NCBI RefSeq assembly: GCF_900104745.1
Contig: NZ_LT629732.1
Location: 620,001 to 684,000 of the forward strand
Reading direction: 5' to 3'
Length of the DNA stretch: 64,000 nucleotides
From: Actinopolymorpha singaporensis
GTDB lineage: Bacteria > Actinomycetota > Actinomycetes > Propionibacteriales > Actinopolymorphaceae
The position numbers and the translations under genes are program-made. The notes below the pieces were generated by a model. It saw only the letters and a list, made by a program, of their open reading frames with translations, ran no database searches and was not told the DNA's origin. Below, piece by piece: positions 46,660-55,415 of the stretch (positions are counted from its first letter, which is position 1; each line of letters starts with the position of its first letter).

Positions 46660-46754
46660 GGAGGCGTCTCCGGCCTGGTGGCCGGCACGGTCTTCAACAC
46701 CGATGAGCGGCAGGAGCTGTCGCTGGCGGGTTCGATTCCCGTCCGCCTCCGCCA
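46660..46754 (+). tRNA. selC: tRNA-Sec (anticodon UCA)
   Basis: A selenocysteine tRNA of 95 nt, including an encoded 3' CCA. The acceptor GGAGGCG pairs with CGCCTCC; the eighth pair position is a T-C mismatch in this reading. The D arm is CCGGCC-TGGT-GGCCGG, six pairs with a four-base loop, which is diagnostic of bacterial tRNA-Sec. The anticodon loop is CTTCAAC with TCA at 46694-46696, reading UGA. The long variable arm is AGCGGCAG-GAG-CTGTCGCT (eight pairs). The T arm is GCGGG-TTCGATT-CCCGT. It sits 63 bp before selA. Confidence 0.95.
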
Positions 46755-46817: not shown

Positions 46818-48206
46818 ATGACCGACGCCCGCCGCCGCGTGCCCCGCACGGACGTCGTCCTCGCCGACCCCCGGCTGGCCGAGCCGGCCCGCACCCTCGG
46901 CCGCGCCGCGGTGAAGGCCGCTGTCGTCGCCGCACAGGAACGCGTCCGCGCCGGCCAGGTCGAACCCGAGGCGCTCGTCGACGTCGTACTCGCCGAACTG
47001 CCCGCGTCGGCCACCAGCCTGCGCCGCGTGGTGAACGCGACCGGCGTGATCGTGCACACCAACCTCGGCCGCGCACCGCTGTCGGCCGCCGCGCGGGATG
47101 CGCTGGACGTCGCCGCCGGGACCACCGACGTGGAGTACGACCTGGCCACCGGCGCCCGCGCCCGGCGCGGACGAGGCGCTTTGGACGCGCTCGCCCGGGC
47201 GGTACCCGACGCGGGCGGGGTGCACGTCGTCAACAACAACGCCGCCGCCCTGCTGCTGGTCGCGCTGACCCTGGCGCAGGGCAAGGAGATCGTGCTCAGC
47301 CGGGGCGAGTTCGTGGAGATCGGCGACGGCTTCCGCATCCCGGACCTCCTCGCCGCGAGCGGGGCCCGACTGCGCGAGGTGGGTACGACGAACCGGACCA
47401 CCCGCGCGGACTACGAGGCGGCGATCGGCCCGCAGACCGGGTTCGTCCTGAAGATCCACCCGTCGAACTTCGTCGTGTCCGGCTTCACCGCCGGAGTCGA
47501 CGTCGCCAGCCTCGCCGACCTGGGCGAGCGCCTCGGCGTACCCGTCGTGGTCGACATCGGCTCCGGCCTGCTGGCCCCGCACCCGCTGCTGCCGGACGAG
47601 CCGGACGCCGCGAACGCCCTGCGCGCTGGCGCGACCCTGGTCACCGCGAGCGGCGACAAGCTGCTCGGCGGCCCGCAGGCCGGACTCGTCCTCGGCGTAC
47701 GCGACGTGGTGGAACGGGCCCGCCGCCACCCGGCGGCACGGGCGATGCGGGTGGACAAGCTCACCCTCGCGGCCCTGGAGGCAACGCTGCGCGGGCCGGC
47801 CCCGCCGGTGCGCGCCGCACTGGACGCAGACGCGGCCGGGTTGCGGGGCCGGGCGGACAAACTCGCCGCCGCGCTCGCCGGCGCCGGGATCGACGCCACC
47901 GTGGTCGCCTGCCGGTCGGCGGTCGGTGGCGGCGGCGCGCCCGAGGTGGAGCTGGCGAGCTGGGGCGTCGGCGTACCCGCGGCGTGGGCGGTGCCGCTGC
48001 GGACCGGCGACCCGCCGGTGGTCGGCCGGGTGCACGAGGGGCGCTGCGTCCTCGACCTGCGCACCGTTGCGGCCGAGGACGACTCCGTGCTCGCCGACGC
48101 GGTCGCCCGCGTGGCCGCGGGCCGGGTTCCCGGCTCCGTGGCCTCCACCCTGTCCACCCTGTCCACCCTGTCCACCCCGGCCTCCCCGTCCTCCTCGAGG
48201 AACTGA
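46818..48206 (+). CDS. selA: L-seryl-tRNA(Sec) selenium transferase
   Basis: A 462-residue PLP enzyme that converts Ser-tRNA-Sec to Sec-tRNA-Sec using selenophosphate. The PLP lysine is Lys281 in TASGDKLLGGPQAGLVLG. Other SelA blocks: NATGVIVHTNLGRAPLSAAA, VEYDLATGARARRGRG, VNNNAAALLL, LSRGEFVEIGDGFRIPD and EVGTTNRTTRADYEAAIG. Length matches E. coli SelA (463). The C-terminus carries an STL repeat from 9-bp DNA repeats. It follows tRNA-Sec by 63 bp and precedes selB by 12 bp, so charging and delivery of Sec are encoded together. Confidence 0.97.
   Translation: MTDARRRVPRTDVVLADPRLAEPARTLGRAAVKAAVVAAQERVRAGQVEPEALVDVVLAELPASATSLRRVVNATGVIVHTNLGRAPLSAAARDALDVAAGTTDVEYDLATGARARRGRGALDALARAVPDAGGVHVVNNNAAALLLVALTLAQGKEIVLSRGEFVEIGDGFRIPDLLAASGARLREVGTTNRTTRADYEAAIGPQTGFVLKIHPSNFVVSGFTAGVDVASLADLGERLGVPVVVDIGSGLLAPHPLLPDEPDAANALRAGATLVTASGDKLLGGPQAGLVLGVRDVVERARRHPAARAMRVDKLTLAALEATLRGPAPPVRAALDADAAGLRGRADKLAAALAGAGIDATVVACRSAVGGGGAPEVELASWGVGVPAAWAVPLRTGDPPVVGRVHEGRCVLDLRTVAAEDDSVLADAVARVAAGRVPGSVASTLSTLSTLSTPASPSSSRN
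48147..48173. repeat. Three 9-bp repeats near the selA C-terminus
   Basis: ACCCTGTCC occurs three times in a row, encoding a Ser-Thr-Leu repeat about 12 codons before the selA stop. In-frame. Confidence 0.85.
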
Positions 48207-48218
48207 GGGAGGCACGGG

Positions 48219-50096
48219 ATGTACGTCGTCGCCACCGCCGGCCACGTCGACCACGGCAAGTCGACGCTGGTTCGCCGCCTCACCGGCATGGAACCGGACC
48301 GCTGGGCCGAGGAACGCCGACGCGGCCTGACCATCGACCTGGGCTTCGCGTGGACGCGGCTGCCCGACGGTCAGGCGCTGGCGTTCGTCGACGTGCCCGG
48401 CCACGAACGCTTCGTACCCAACATGCTCGCCGGCGCCGGGCCGGTCGCGGCCGCGATGTTCGTGGTGGCCGCCGACGAGGGGTGGCGGGCGCAGTCGGCC
48501 GAGCACCTCGCCGCGCTGGACGCGCTCGGCGTACGCCACGGGCTGCTCGTCGTCACCCGCTCCGACCTCGCCGACCCCGAACCCGCCCGGGCGCACGCCC
48601 TGGAGCAACTCGCGGCCAGCACGCTGGGCGCCGGCGGCGCCGGCGGCACCGGCGGCGCCGTGCCCTCGGTCGCCGTCAGTGGCCGCACCGGCGCGGGTCT
48701 GGACGACCTGCTGACCGAGTTGGCCGCGCTGACCCACCGGCTGCCCGTGCCCGACCCGGGCGCCGACGTACGGCTCTGGGTGGACCGCTCGTTCAGCGTA
48801 CGCGGTGCCGGCACCGTCGTGACCGGCACGCTCACCGCCGGAACCATCGCGGTCGGCGACATCCTCGCCGTCGCCGGTCGGGGTGGCGGTCAGGGGGAAC
48901 GCCGGCTGGTGCGGGTCCGCGGGCTGCAGGCGCTCGGCGAGGACCTGCGGAGCGTGCAGGGGACCGCCCGGGTCGCGGTGAACCTGCGGGGAGTCGACCG
49001 TGCGGACCTCGGCCGCGGCGACGCGCTCGTCACCCCGGACGCCTGGCGGGAGACCGAGGTCGTGGACGTGGCGCTCCGGTACGGCGGGGGTGAGCTGCCG
49101 GGGACGCTGGTCCTGCACGTCGGCGCGGCCGCGGTGCCGGCGCGGGTCCGCCCGCTCGGCCCGAACGCGGCCCGGCTCACCCTCGACCGGCCGCTCCCGC
49201 TGCGCACCGGCGACCGCGGGCTGTTGCGCGACCCCGGACGGCACCAGGTCGCCGCGGGCCTGGCGGTGCTGGACGCCGCACCGCCCGAACTGCACCGTCG
49301 GGGCGCGGCCCGGACCAGAGCACGGTCCCTCGCGCCGGCCGTACGGGAGACGAACGGCGCAACCGACCCGGCCGACTCGGCCGGCCTCACCGCGTACGTC
49401 GCCGGTCTCCACCTGCGCGAGCACGGCCTGGTCCGCCGCGACGAGCTCCGCGCGCTGGGCCTGCCCGAGCTGCCACCGGACAGCCTCGACGTCGGTGCCG
49501 GCTGGTCCGCGGCCGCCGACCACTGGGCGAAGCTGACCGGACGGGCACCGGAGGAGCTGGCCGGCTGGGAACGCGAGCACCCGCTGGCAGCGGGCATGCC
49601 GTCCGACGTACTCCGGCAACGCCTCGGCATCCCCGCCGCCCTGCTGCCGGCCGTGGCCGGTGCCGCCGAGCTGCTCCTGCGGGACGGCCAGGTACGCCGG
49701 CCGGGCACCGAGGCGACGCTGCCCCCGGCCGTGGAGAAGGCGGTGCGCACGGTGGAGGACGACCTGGCCGCGGAGCCGTTCGCCGCGCCCGAGGCGGCCC
49801 GGCTGGCCGAACTCGGCCTCGGCACCCGCGAGCTCGCCGCCGCCGTACGTGCCGGCCGGCTGCTCCGCGTCACCGACACGGTGGTGCTGCTGCCCGACGC
49901 CCCCGACCAGGCCCGGCGTACTCTCGGCGCGCTCGACCAGCCGTTCACCCTCAGCCAGGCGCGGATCGCCCTGGGCACCACCCGCCGGGTGGCGGTCCCC
50001 CTGCTGGAGCTGCTCGACGAGCGCGGCGTCACCGAGCGCCTGCCCGACAGCAGCCGCCGGCTCGTCCCGCGCGCCTCAACCAGCGAAGGACGCTAG
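48219..50096 (+). CDS. selB: Selenocysteine-specific elongation factor
   Basis: A 625-residue GTPase that carries Sec-tRNA-Sec to the ribosome and binds the SECIS hairpin. The N-terminal EF-Tu-like part has G1 GHVDHGKST (8-16), the switch region RRGLTIDLGFAW, G3 DVPGHERFV, and VTRSDL in the G4 position (canonical NKxD/TKxD altered to TRSD, as in other SelB). The domain after that has VDRSFSVRGAGTVVTGTLTAG. The last about 250 residues contain winged-helix repeats for mRNA binding, including FTLSQARIALGTTRRVAVPL. Length close to E. coli SelB (614). Starts 12 bp after selA. Confidence 0.97.
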   Translation: MYVVATAGHVDHGKSTLVRRLTGMEPDRWAEERRRGLTIDLGFAWTRLPDGQALAFVDVPGHERFVPNMLAGAGPVAAAMFVVAADEGWRAQSAEHLAALDALGVRHGLLVVTRSDLADPEPARAHALEQLAASTLGAGGAGGTGGAVPSVAVSGRTGAGLDDLLTELAALTHRLPVPDPGADVRLWVDRSFSVRGAGTVVTGTLTAGTIAVGDILAVAGRGGGQGERRLVRVRGLQALGEDLRSVQGTARVAVNLRGVDRADLGRGDALVTPDAWRETEVVDVALRYGGGELPGTLVLHVGAAAVPARVRPLGPNAARLTLDRPLPLRTGDRGLLRDPGRHQVAAGLAVLDAAPPELHRRGAARTRARSLAPAVRETNGATDPADSAGLTAYVAGLHLREHGLVRRDELRALGLPELPPDSLDVGAGWSAAADHWAKLTGRAPEELAGWEREHPLAAGMPSDVLRQRLGIPAALLPAVAGAAELLLRDGQVRRPGTEATLPPAVEKAVRTVEDDLAAEPFAAPEAARLAELGLGTRELAAAVRAGRLLRVTDTVVLLPDAPDQARRTLGALDQPFTLSQARIALGTTRRVAVPLLELLDERGVTERLPDSSRRLVPRASTSEGR

Positions 50097-50099: not shown

Positions 50100-50149
50100 C
50101 GATCGCGCACGAGACCTCACGCGAACCACAAGCGAGCAAGGTGGCGGTC

Positions 50150-53100
50150 ATGGGCGTACGACAGTGGATCGAGGGCTGGCCGGTCTATCGCCAGCTCACC
50201 GGTCAGGACCCGCTCGGCCGCGGCGCCGCGGTCACCTCCGAGCACACCCGCCAGCTGCGGGCACGCACGGAGCAGGCCGACAAGGTGGTCCGGTCGATCT
50301 GCCCGTACTGCGCGGTCGGCTGCGGCCAGAAGGTCTACGTCAAGGACGGCCGGGTCACCCAGATCGAGGGCGACCCCGACTCTCCCATCTCCCGCGGCCG
50401 GCTGTGTCCCAAGGGCTCGGCCAGCAAGCAGCTCGTCACCAGCCCGAGCCGGGTCACCACCGTGCTGTACCGGCGGCCGCACGGCACCGACTGGGAACGC
50501 ATCCCCCTCGATCAGGCGATGGAGATGGTCGCCGACCGGGTGCTCTCGACCCGGCGCGACACCTGGCGGGACGAGGAGGGCGGCCGTCCCACCCGCCGCA
50601 CCATGGGCATCGCGAGCCTGGGCGGGGCGACGCTGGACAACGAAGAGAACTACTTGATGAAGAAGCTCTACACCGCGATGGGGGCGGTGCAGATCGAGAA
50701 CCAGGCCCGGATTTGACACTCCGCAACCGTTCCCGGTCTGGGAGCCAGTTTCGGTCGCGGCGGCGCCACGACGTACCAGCAGGACCTGAGCAACGCTGAC
50801 TGCATCCTCATCGAGGGCTCGAACATGGCCGAGTGCCATCCGGTCGGGTTCCAGTGGGTGATGGAGGCCAAGGCCAAGGGCGCGCGGATCATCCACGTCG
50901 ACCCGCGGTTCACCCGTACGAGCGCGGTCGCCGACACGCACGTGGCGCTGCGGGCCGGATCGGACATCGCGTTCCTCGGCGGGCTGATCAACCACGTGCT
51001 GAGCAACGGTCTGGAGTTCCGGGAGTACGTCACCGCCTACACCAACGCGGGCGCGATCCTGAGGGAGGACTTCCGCGACACCGAGGACCTCGACGGCCTG
51101 TTCTCCGGCTTCGACCCCGAGAACATGTCGTACGACACCGAGTCCTGGATGTACGAGGGGGCCGAGACCGCCCCGGCGGCAGGGCAGCGGGACGGGTCCG
51201 GCGAGGGCGGGGGCGAAGAGGGCTCCGGCGAGGAGGGCGACACCGGCACCGAGCACGGTGACCTTCGACACCGCGAGACGGCTCGCGCCGACACCTACGG
51301 CAGCGGCGGCGCGGCCCTGCGCGCCAAGCCCCGCATCGACCCCACCCTCCAGCACGAGCGCTGCGTCTTCCAGGTGCTCAAACGGCACTTCGCCCGCTAC
51401 ACCCCGGAAGTCGTGGAGGAGACCTGCGGCATCCCGGTCGAGCAGTTCCTCGACGTCGCCCAGGCGGTGACGGAGAACTCCGGCCGCGAGCGCACCACCG
51501 CGATCGTCTACTCCGTCGGCTGGACCCAGCACACGGTCGGGGTGCAGTACATCCGCACCGCATCGATCCTGCAGACCCTGCTGGGCAACATCGGCCGGCC
51601 CGGCGGCGGCATCATGGCGCTGCGCGGTCACGCCAGCATCCAGGGGTCCACCGACATCCCGACGTTGTTCAACCTGCTGCCGGGCTACCTCCCGATGCCG
51701 CACGCGCACCAGCACCAGGACCTCGACTCCTACGTCGCCACCGACGCGGGCCAGACCGGCTTCTGGGGCAACATGCGCAGTTACGCCGTCAGCCTGCTGA
51801 AGGCCTGGTGGGGTGATGCGGCCCAGCCGGAGAACGACTTCTGCTTCGACTACATACCGCGGATCACGGGCGAGCACGGCACCTACAAGACGGTGATGGC
51901 GCAGATCGCCGGGGAGTGCAAGGGCTACTTCCTCGCGGGCGAGAACCCCGCGGTCGGGTCGGCCAACGCCAAGCTGCAGCGGCTCGGCCTGGCCAACCTC
52001 GACTGGCTGGTCGTCCGCGACCTGCAGATGATCGAGAGCGCGACGTTCTGGAAGGACGGGCCGGAGATCCAGACCGGCGAGCTGTCCACGGAGGAGATCG
52101 GCACCGAGGTCTTCTTCTTCCCGGCCGCCGCGCACACCGAGAAAGACGGCAGCTTCACCAACACCCAGCGGCTGCTGCAGTGGCACCACAAGGCGGTCGA
52201 GCCGCCGGACGACGCGCGCAGCGACCTGTGGTTCTACTACCACCTGGGCCGGATGCTGCGGGCGAGGCTGGCCGGCTCCACCGACGAACGCGACCGGCCG
52301 CTGCTGGACCTGACCTGGGACTACCCCACCGAGGGCCCGACCGCCGACCCGTCGGCGGAAGCCGTACTCCGCGAGATCAACGGCGTCGGCCCGGACGGCG
52401 CGCTGTCGGCGTACACCGAACTCGCCGACGACGGCTCCACCGCCTGTGGGTGCTGGATCTACTGCGGCGTCTACGCGGGCGAGCACAACCACGCCGCGGA
52501 CCGCAAGCCGGGCCGGGAGCAGAGCCTGGTCGCGCCGCAGTGGGCCTGGGCATGGCCGGCGAACCGCCGGATCCTGTACAACCGCGCCTCCGCCGACCCC
52601 GAGGGACGGCCGTGGAGCGAACGCAAGCGGTACGTCTGGTGGGACGCCGAGCAGGAACGCTGGACCGGCGAGGACGTGCCCGACTTCGAACCCACGAAGC
52701 GGCCCGACTACGTGCCACCCGAGGACGCCCGCGCCGAGGACGCGCTCGCCGGGGACGACCCGTTCATCATGCAGGCCGACGGCAAGGCGTGGCTGTTCGC
52801 GCCCGCCGGCCTCACCGACGGCCCGCTGCCGGCGCACTACGAGCCGGAGGAGTCCCCGGTCGCCAACCCGCTGTACGGCCAGCAGGCCAACCCGGTCCGG
52901 CAACGCTACCCCCGCCGGTACAACCGCTACGCCTCGGGCGAGAACGACCCGGTGTCGGCGGTGTTCCCGTACGTCTTCACCACGTACCGGCTCACCGAGC
53001 ACCACACCGCCGGCGGGATGAGCCGCACCCTGCCGTACCTCTCCGAGCTGCAGCCGGAGTTCTTCTGCGAGGTGTCGCCGGAGCTGGCGCAGGAGCGGGG

Positions 53101-53464
53101 CCTCACCCACCTCGGCTGGGCGACCATCGTCTCCGCGCGGACGGCGGTCGAGGCGCGGGTGCTGGTCACCCCGCGGATGAAGCCGATCCGGATGCGGCGC
53201 CGGGTCGTCCACCAGGTCGGCCTGCCCTACCACTGGGGGCCGAACGGCCTCAGTGTCGGTGACGCGGCCAACGAGCTCCTGTCGGTCGTGCTCGACCCGA
53301 ACGTCCACATCCAGGAGTCCAAGGCCGCGACCTGCGACATCCAGCCCGGCCGCAGACCACGCGGGCGCGAACTGCTGGCCATGATGGACCGCTACCAGCT
53401 ACGGGCAGGTCTGCCGACCGACACCCCGACAGGAGCCGACACCCCGACAGGAGAGGCGACCTGA
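50150..53464 (+). CDS. fdhA: Formate dehydrogenase alpha subunit, selenoprotein (in-frame UGA = Sec189)
   Basis: A 1104-residue molybdopterin enzyme oxidising formate to CO2. The frame is interrupted once, by TGA at 50714-50716; reading it as selenocysteine gives IENQARI-U-HSATVPGL, the formate-dehydrogenase active site. The first [4Fe-4S] site uses Cys51, 54, 58 and Cys86. Downstream blocks: AECHPVGFQWVMEAKAKGAR, HVDPRFTRTSAVADTH, YIRTASILQTLLGNIGRPGGG and ENPAVGSANAKLQRLGL. No twin-arginine signal is seen, so it probably faces the cytoplasm. Residues about 338-385 are an acidic Gly/Glu-rich insertion. ATG start with AAGGTGG 6 nt upstream. It overlaps fdhB by one base. The tail has an 18-bp repeat. 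Confidence 0.95.
50721..50754 (+). promoter_or_regulatory. SECIS-like hairpin for selenocysteine insertion
   Basis: Directly after the in-frame TGA, TCCC (50731-50734) and GGGA (50740-50743) close an apical loop GGTCT; below it CCGCAACCG (50721-50729) pairs with CAGTTTCGG (50746-50754) with two single mismatches. The loop begins 18 nt after the TGA. Loop sequence and distance match the E. coli fdhF SECIS as I remember it (GGUCU, 18 nt). It is part of the coding sequence and is the expected SelB binding site. Confidence 0.88.
53420..53455. repeat. Two 18-bp repeats at the fdhA C-terminus
   Basis: GACACCCCGACAGGAGcc/ag occurs twice, encoding DTPTGA-DTPTGE three codons before the stop. In-frame. 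Confidence 0.85.
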
Positions 53465-54411
53465 TGAGCAACCGCCTGGCGGGACCCCTCGCCGACCCGG
53501 CCGCCGACGCGGGCCACCCGGAGGACCATCCGCCGCGGGTGGGCTTCTTCACCGACACCTCGGTGTGCATCGGCTGCAAGGCCTGCGAGGTCGCCTGCAA
53601 GGAGTGGAACGCCCTGCCCGAGGACGGCCTGAACTTCCTCGGTCACTCCTACGACAACACCGGCGCGCTCGGGGCGAGCACCTGGCGGCACGTCGCGTTC
53701 GTCGAGCAGGAGGCCCCGTCCGGTCGGCCGCCGGTCGACCTCGGGATGCCCGGTGTCGGTACGCCGGCCCGGCTCGACCCCGCCACCGCGCGCACGGTCG
53801 GCGAGGACGCCGGCTCGGGCGACGGAGCCGCCGGCGACGCGGGCGCCCTGCGCTGGCTGATGTCCAGCGACGTCTGCAAGCACTGCACGCACGCGGCCTG
53901 CCTGGACGTCTGCCCGACGGGCGCGCTGTTCCGGACCGAGTTCGGCACGGTGGTCGTCCAGGACGACGTGTGCAACGGCTGCGGCTACTGCGTCTCGGCC
54001 TGCCCGTACGGCGTCATCGACATCCGCCCCGACAACGGCGGCGCGTTCAAGTGCACCATGTGCTACGACCGGCTCGGCGACGGACTGGAGCCGGCCTGCG
54101 CGAAGGCGTGCCCCACGGAGTCGATCCAGTTCGGCCCGCTGGACGAGTTGCGCGAGCGGGCCCGCGAGCGGGTGGCGACGCTGCAGGAGGCCGGGGTGGA
54201 CACCGCCCGGCTGTACGGCGCGGACCCCGACGACGGAGTGGGCGGCGACGGCGCGTTCTTCCTGCTGCTGGACGAGCCGGAGGTGTACGGCCTGCCGCCG
54301 GACCCGGTGGTGACCACCCGCGACCTGCCGGCGATGTGGCGCCAGGCGGGGCTCGCGGCGGCCACCATCGCGGTCGCGGTCGCGGCGTCGTTCCTCGGGA
54401 GGCGGCGGTGA
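53464..54411 (+). CDS. fdhB: Formate dehydrogenase iron-sulfur (beta) subunit
   Basis: A 315-residue ferredoxin-type subunit passing electrons from FdhA to the membrane. Four cysteine clusters are visible: CIGCKACEVACKEW, CKHCTHAACLDVCPTGAL, CNGCGYCVSACPYGV and CTMCYDRLGDGLEPACAKAC, enough for four [4Fe-4S] centres. The C-terminus has a hydrophobic segment (AGLAAATIAVAVAASFLG) as an anchor. A loop of about 40 residues after the first cluster (EQEAPSGRPPVDLGMP...) is rich in Pro/Asp. Its ATG overlaps the fdhA stop (TGATG) and its stop overlaps nrfD. Confidence 0.95.
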   Translation: MSNRLAGPLADPAADAGHPEDHPPRVGFFTDTSVCIGCKACEVACKEWNALPEDGLNFLGHSYDNTGALGASTWRHVAFVEQEAPSGRPPVDLGMPGVGTPARLDPATARTVGEDAGSGDGAAGDAGALRWLMSSDVCKHCTHAACLDVCPTGALFRTEFGTVVVQDDVCNGCGYCVSACPYGVIDIRPDNGGAFKCTMCYDRLGDGLEPACAKACPTESIQFGPLDELRERARERVATLQEAGVDTARLYGADPDDGVGGDGAFFLLLDEPEVYGLPPDPVVTTRDLPAMWRQAGLAAATIAVAVAASFLGRRR

Positions 54412-55415
54412 GCACCCGCGAGGAACTCCAGGTCCCGCGCGCCGAGTTCCGGTCCTACTACGGGCGGCCCATCCTCAAGGAGCCGACCTGGAAGGTGCCC
54501 GACGTACCCCTCTACTTCTTCCTCGGCGGCATGGCCGGCGCCTCGGCGACGATGGCCGCGCTCGCCGACCTCACCGGGCAGGAGGGGCTGGCCCGCACCG
54601 GCCGGTACGCCGCGGCGTTCGGGTCGACCGCGAGCGTGGCAGCGCTGGTACACGACCTGCACCGGCCGACCCGGTTCCTGAACATGCTGCGGGTGTTCAA
54701 GCCGACCTCGCCGCTGTCGGTGGGTTCGTGGATCCTCGCACCGTTCTCCGGTACGGCCGCCGCCGCAGCGGTGTCCACGGTGACCGGGGTGCTGCCGGCG
54801 TGGGGACGCGCGGCGGGGCTCGCCTCGGGTGTGCTCGGCCCGGCGCTGTCCACCTACACCGCGGTGCTGCTGACCGACACCGCGATCCCGGCCTGGCACG
54901 AATACCACCGCGAGCTTCCGTTCGTGTTCGCCGGAAGCGCGCTGGCCAGCGGCGCCGGCGCCGCCCTGGTGGCCGCGCCGCCGGCCGAGCTGGCACCGGC
55001 CCGGCGGATGGCGGTGCTCGGCGCCGGCATCGAGCTCGCCGCCGCAACCCGGATCGAACGCACCGGCGGCATCGTCGGCGAGCCGTACCGCACCGGCCGC
55101 CCGCGCAGGCTGATGGCCGCCGGGCGGATCCTCACCGGTGTCGGCGCGGGGCTGGCGCTGGCCGGCCGGCGCAGCCGCCTGGTGTCGGACCGGAACAGCC
55201 GGCTGCTGTCCGCGGCGGCCGGCGTCTCGCTGCTCGCGGGCGGGGTGTGCACGCGGTTCGGCGTGTTCTACGCCGGCCGGGCGTCCGCCGCCGACCCCAA
55301 GTACGTCGTCATGCCGCAACGCGACCGCGTCGCCGCCCGAAGCGACGGTGCCGCCGAGGGCACGGCCACGGCGAAGACGGGTGGCGCCACGGGACCCGGC
55401 TCCCCGCCGCGGTGA
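54408..55415 (+). CDS. nrfD: NrfD/PsrC-family membrane subunit of formate dehydrogenase
   Basis: A 335-residue membrane protein of the polysulfide-reductase NrfD family, with about eight hydrophobic segments. It opens SYYGRPILKEPTWKVPDVPL and has LYFFLGGMAGASATMAALADL and DLHRPTRFLNMLRVFKPTSPL (a conserved quinone-site block), with the late FGVFYAGRASAADPKYV. In this place it should pass electrons from FdhB to menaquinone instead of a cytochrome b subunit. The GTG overlaps the fdhB stop (GTGA). Disordered C-terminal tail of about 30 residues. Confidence 0.92.
   Translation: MSTREELQVPRAEFRSYYGRPILKEPTWKVPDVPLYFFLGGMAGASATMAALADLTGQEGLARTGRYAAAFGSTASVAALVHDLHRPTRFLNMLRVFKPTSPLSVGSWILAPFSGTAAAAAVSTVTGVLPAWGRAAGLASGVLGPALSTYTAVLLTDTAIPAWHEYHRELPFVFAGSALASGAGAALVAAPPAELAPARRMAVLGAGIELAAATRIERTGGIVGEPYRTGRPRRLMAAGRILTGVGAGLALAGRRSRLVSDRNSRLLSAAAGVSLLAGGVCTRFGVFYAGRASAADPKYVVMPQRDRVAARSDGAAEGTATAKTGGATGPGSPPR

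Follow-up and report, generated by a model that had tools for sequence, protein, structure and literature searches.

The formate dehydrogenase alpha-subunit gene at positions 50141 to 53464 (+ strand) of the window, a 64,000-nucleotide stretch of the Actinopolymorpha singaporensis contig NZ_LT629732.1, very probably encodes a selenocysteine (Sec)-containing protein of the FDH-N/O type, with an in-frame UGA codon (50714-50716, + strand) decoded via a SECIS element of the fdnG/fdoG type. To judge from its relatives the UGA is almost certainly read as Sec, because the hairpin located 3' to it is kept in relatives that use Sec and lost in those that use Cys. The gene annotation should be that of one full-length selenoprotein, and not of two fragments.

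The fdhA/fdnG-like alpha-subunit frame comprises 1107 codons. It matches the profile NF041513.1 (formate_DH_Act) with 1994.9 bits, covering model positions 2-1065 of 1067 when the UGA is read as an amino acid, and TIGR01553 with 929 bits. The first-pass annotation had claimed that the frame is broken just once, and this is correct. Translation with TGA = U reveals a single internal stop between 50141 and 53464, that at 50714-50716, corresponding to residue 192 counting from the GTG at 50141, or 189 from the ATG at 50150. The flanking residues were also claimed to be those of a formate dehydrogenase Sec site, and they are matched by E. coli fdnG; the window sequence is ENQARI-U-HSATVPGL, compared with DNQARV-U-HGPTVASL. 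The full-length match to the family profile, and the presence of Cys or a Sec-type codon in every homologue collected, are as expected for an FDH-N/O-type alpha subunit. The alpha subunit also contains a Gly/Glu-rich stretch of low complexity, at 51157-51330 (about residues 340-396).

The genes for tRNA-Sec, SelA and SelB lie directly 5' of the alpha-subunit gene on the same strand. selC (46660-46750) encodes a tRNA-Sec with anticodon UCA that is found by both Rfam (RF01852, 75.2 bits) and ARAGORN. It is followed by selA (46818-48206; TIGR00474, 428 bits with a cutoff of 268) and selB (48219-50096; TIGR00475, 254.9 bits with a cutoff of 242), with a SelB winged helix (PF09107, SelB-wing_3) at residues 574-610 of the latter. 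On the 3' side, again on the + strand, the start codon of the gene for a formate dehydrogenase beta (Fe-S) subunit (53464-54411; best match TIGR01582 with 182 bits, below the cutoff of 335) overlaps the stop codon of the alpha subunit (53464), and an NrfD-like membrane subunit is encoded at 54414-55415 (PF03916, E = 9e-11). selD is located outside the window, approximately 5.3 Mb from the FDH cluster on the same contig (C1:5933736-5934656). It is Sec-coding itself, with a UGA at the catalytic position in the motif U-A-G-K. All of selA, selB, selC and selD, which constitute the Sec-decoding trait, are therefore found in the genome.

These components suggest a way in which the UGA would be read. 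The hairpin at 50729-50745, with a loop of the form RGUYU (here GGUCU), would act as a bacterial SECIS of the fdnG/fdoG type, bound by SelB through its C-terminal winged helix. SelB would bring Sec-tRNA(UCA), made by SelA and SelD, to the UGA, which precedes the loop by 18 nt, and the inserted Sec would act as a ligand to the active-site Mo/W. That SelB binds, that Sec is inserted in vivo and that the enzyme is active are all predictions made from the sequence.

We number the hairpin with the U of the UGA as 1, so that the sequence is UGA CAC UCC GCA ACC GUU CCC GGU CUG GGA GCC. The core hairpin (50729-50745, + strand) has the six base pairs 16-32, 17-31, 18-30, 19-29, 20-28 and 21-27 (50729-50734 with 50740-50745), enclosing the loop GGUCU at nucleotides 22-26. 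The apical loop occupies 50735-50739 and is separated from the UGA by 18 nt, just as first described. The first-pass annotation had drawn a longer hairpin, extending over 50721-50754. The core within it is conserved, but no more than 31-38 of 81 distinct relatives retain the outer pairs 10-45, 13-42 and 15-40 (the three positions with testable variation). Lacking conservation of these pairs, the longer hairpin was rejected.

RNA folding and a search for SECIS elements had been proposed as checks. Folding predicts the core hairpin, but its stability is insignificant relative to shuffled sequences (z = -1.2, with 25 of 200 shuffles equally good). Among synonymous recodings of the same peptide 28% fold as stably, and GGU together with the full stem occurs in 1.3%. 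The z-score and the recodings are indecisive, so single-sequence folding statistics were dropped as support, and it is therefore comparison with relatives that decides. Searching Rfam over 50711-50772 gives SECIS_3 (RF01989) as the best match with 26.6 bits (E = 3.6e-4), but this is below the gathering score of 63 bits. A published model of the bacterial SECIS has a loop of 3-9 nt with at least one G in loop positions 1-2, an upper stem of 4-16 bp, a UGA-to-loop distance of 16-37 nt and an MFE of -7.5 kcal/mol or lower, together with SelB binding and Sec insertion (PMC13188914). The hairpin studied here has a 5-nt loop of sequence GGUCU, 6 bp, a spacing of 18 nt, and an MFE of -9.0 kcal/mol for nt 12-35. 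It thus conforms to the model in all aspects of sequence and structure, and SelB binding is predicted from conservation and the presence of selB.

We compared 111 actinobacterial Sec sequences (79 distinct, with the window included) with 24 Cys homologues. The codon at the Sec site is TGA in 89 (again including the window), TAG in 22 and TGC or TGT in 24. All 111 Sec sequences have the loop RGUYU, and all six core pairs are intact in 78 of the 79 distinct Sec sequences compared with 0 of 24 Cys homologues. The hairpin is therefore conserved in relatives, a property on which the first-pass annotation had made its interpretation depend. In 21 of the 24 Cys homologues the codon at the position of the loop GGU is GGG, GGC or GGA. 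At Sec+6, where the codon contributes one side of the stem, all the Sec homologues have Pro, encoded by CCC or CCG. These codons are absent from the Cys homologues, which carry Ala, Val or Ser there.

The Cys homologues form one clade, and the tree has a single change from Sec to Cys. Comparing U24 between the Sec and Cys sequences by a simple Fisher test gives p of about 5e-19, but the samples are not independent; we have discounted this test because the Cys genes belong to that single clade, and replaced it by counting changes on a tree of the remaining protein from which the site was left out. The wobble base U24 (50737) stays constant throughout the Sec branches (length 17.9) but changes 12 times within the Cys branches (length 3.6). 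Base 22, the first base of the same codon, where a change exchanges Gly and Ser, undergoes 18 changes in the Sec part and none in the Cys part. Only selection on the RNA explains why the wobble base should be fixed when the amino acid can vary. In the stem, the pair 18-30 (50731-50743), comprising the wobble bases of two codons, has changed from CG to UA five times and from CG to GC twice, and the pair 21-27 (50734-50740) from CG to GC three times, making ten compensatory changes in total. Pairing at 18-30 is found in 79 of 79 distinct sequences, compared with a mean of 52.6 and a maximum of 62 on shuffling. Comparison of these sequences indicates that the hairpin is selected as RNA, on both loop and stem, and that this selection is tied to Sec usage. 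A SECIS within a coding region can thus be proved by comparison in GC-rich genomes, when the wobble base of the loop is fixed although its amino acid varies, and other UGA or UAG codons whose reading as Sec is in doubt can be tested in the same way.

The 22 TAG homologues come nearly all from Geodermatophilaceae (the loci include L017, L020, L022, L023, L031, L033, L045, L064 and L068). They retain the hairpin nearly intact, and the TAG genomes that were checked have a tRNA-Sec with anticodon CUA, labeled tRNA-Pyl by ARAGORN. UAG-encoded Sec with a CUA tRNA-Sec is already known in this family (PMC5330540, crediting an earlier report). Six Sec-FDHs from deep Actinomycetota (L181, L182, L183, L184, L188 and L189) have AGC(U/G)U at the position of the loop. 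Ala-Leu replaces Gly/Ser-Leu in these proteins, and the loop is without a GU dinucleotide, although the core of the SelB helix is unchanged in these lineages. Four of them (L183, L184, L188 and L189) have AGCUU, and the protein family can therefore do without the RGUYU loop. Actinacidiphila acididurans (L081 4571 and L247) has a Cys-type FDH alongside tRNA-Sec, selD and a SelB-like gene, so presumably it keeps Sec for another protein.

The first-pass annotation had suggested that SelB here would read the same signal as in E. coli, a suggestion that receives partial support. The C-terminal winged helix of the window SelB is identical to that of E. coli at only 12 of 42 positions, and the two share the helix core G-x-x-R-(R/K). 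WH4 has TER in the window protein compared with TRR in E. coli. A sequence search found a ribosome-bound structure of E. coli SelB (5lzb), in an alignment that ends before the winged helix. Residues of the winged helix were tried as a predictor of loop type and rejected, as L183, L184, L188 and L189, with the loop AGCUU, share the helix core. The selD gene of this genome has the strong hairpin GGCGCA-GGUCC-UGCGCC, 32 nt after its in-frame UGA. Its GGUC is in a different reading frame (CAG GUC CUG) from that of fdhA (GGU CUG), and therefore protein constraint cannot explain the loop that is shared by selD and fdhA. This gives the suggestion about SelB indirect support. Three other Sec-type selD genes have the loops GGUUC (L164), GGUCC (L245) and GGGAC (L244), and in most of the 46 other genomes searched selD has no internal stop.

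The match of the loop to E. coli might be a by-product of protein conservation, given that codons for Val-x-Gly-Leu can spell GUUxxxGGUCUG. The loop does overlap conserved codons for Gly/Ser-Leu, the Cys homologues too are invariant at bases 17, 23 and 26, and a small fraction of synonymous recodings generate GGU and the full stem by themselves. Yet conservation of the protein would not freeze a wobble base only where Sec is encoded while Gly and Ser are exchanged 18 times, nor would it account for the occurrence of CCC or CCG (Pro) at Sec+6 in all Sec and no Cys homologues, or for the covariation of two synonymous wobble sites. We therefore consider this explanation highly improbable. Still less credible is a truncated protein resulting from a UGA that is a true stop codon, a nonsense mutation or an error of sequencing. 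Nothing beyond the stop codon itself points in this direction, while the corresponding codon is TGA in 88 other homologues and encodes Cys in 24. Moreover, the 22 with TAG are matched by a CUA tRNA-Sec in the genomes checked, and on either side of the codon the frame stays open, with similarity at the level of the family.

If the UGA is decoded as Sec via the hairpin, the latter might nevertheless be read in a mode unlike that of E. coli: U17 would not be bulged, a C-G pair closes the loop of 5 nt, and the winged helix of SelB has diverged. U17 is opposite A or G31 in all but one of 79 distinct sequences and so could pair, the 21-27 pair that closes the loop is C-G or G-C, and WH4 has the differences noted above. 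However, the AGUCU loop of E. coli fdnG is also enclosed by a 21-27 pair, leaving the bulge as the sole difference. The core of the SelB helix is common to both, and the selD hairpin of the same genome has an fdhF-like GCA-GGUC loop. On balance a different mode seems unlikely, though it deserves considerably more weight than either of the explanations above. A little more plausible, but still put forward tentatively, is that the actinobacterial FDH SECIS is a bulge-less variant read mainly via its RGU(Y)U loop, with the need of the RNA dictating Pro at Sec+6 and Gly/Ser at Sec+7. If this is true, loss of Sec would free both the RNA and the protein from constraint.

On the basis of its match to TIGR01553 the window gene is an orthologue of E. 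coli fdnG/fdoG (SECIS_3, RF01989), in which the loop AGUCU is likewise 18 nt after the UGA. The two elements lie at the same site, and share the spacing, the loop consensus RGUCU and the register of the pairs 18-30 to 21-27. They differ in that the E. coli RNA has an unpaired U17, with pairs 16-31 and 15-32, whereas here U17 faces A/G31 and G16 pairs with C32. A bulged U17 in the upper stem is important for a SECIS of the E. coli fdhF type. The fdhF gene is a paralogue, and in NC_000913 it reads TGA + CACGGCCCATCGGTTGCA (18 nt) + GGTCT, so the loop and distance given for it in the first-pass annotation are correct. The loop string GGUCU and the 18-nt spacing are identical to those of the window, but in fdhF a GGUC loop is closed by A21-U26 and U17 is unpaired, while in the window a C-G pair closes a loop of 5 nt, and U17 is opposite G31 and predicted to be paired. 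The agreement with E. coli on which the earlier interpretation drew is thus real, but it is not independent because the window gene is an orthologue of fdnG/fdoG. Most simply, the shared loop has been inherited along with the gene.

Sec-type formate dehydrogenases with a SECIS have already been published in actinomycetes, and the mechanism and the enzyme are well known. Streptomyces incarnatus is reported to have a Sec-type FDH with an in-frame UGA and a SECIS, and adjoining sel genes (PMC4498112), and Corynebacterium aurimucosum a UGA-containing fdnG in a cluster with sel genes (PMC2830990). The window resembles these clusters (and the family NF041513) in having a UGA in the FDH alpha subunit and adjoining sel genes, but in this genome selD lies apart from the cluster and has a Sec codon of its own. 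The UAG-Sec system of the Geodermatophilaceae has the same FDH gene and the same hairpin, and differs in its use of a UAG codon with a CUA tRNA-Sec, where the window has UGA and UCA.
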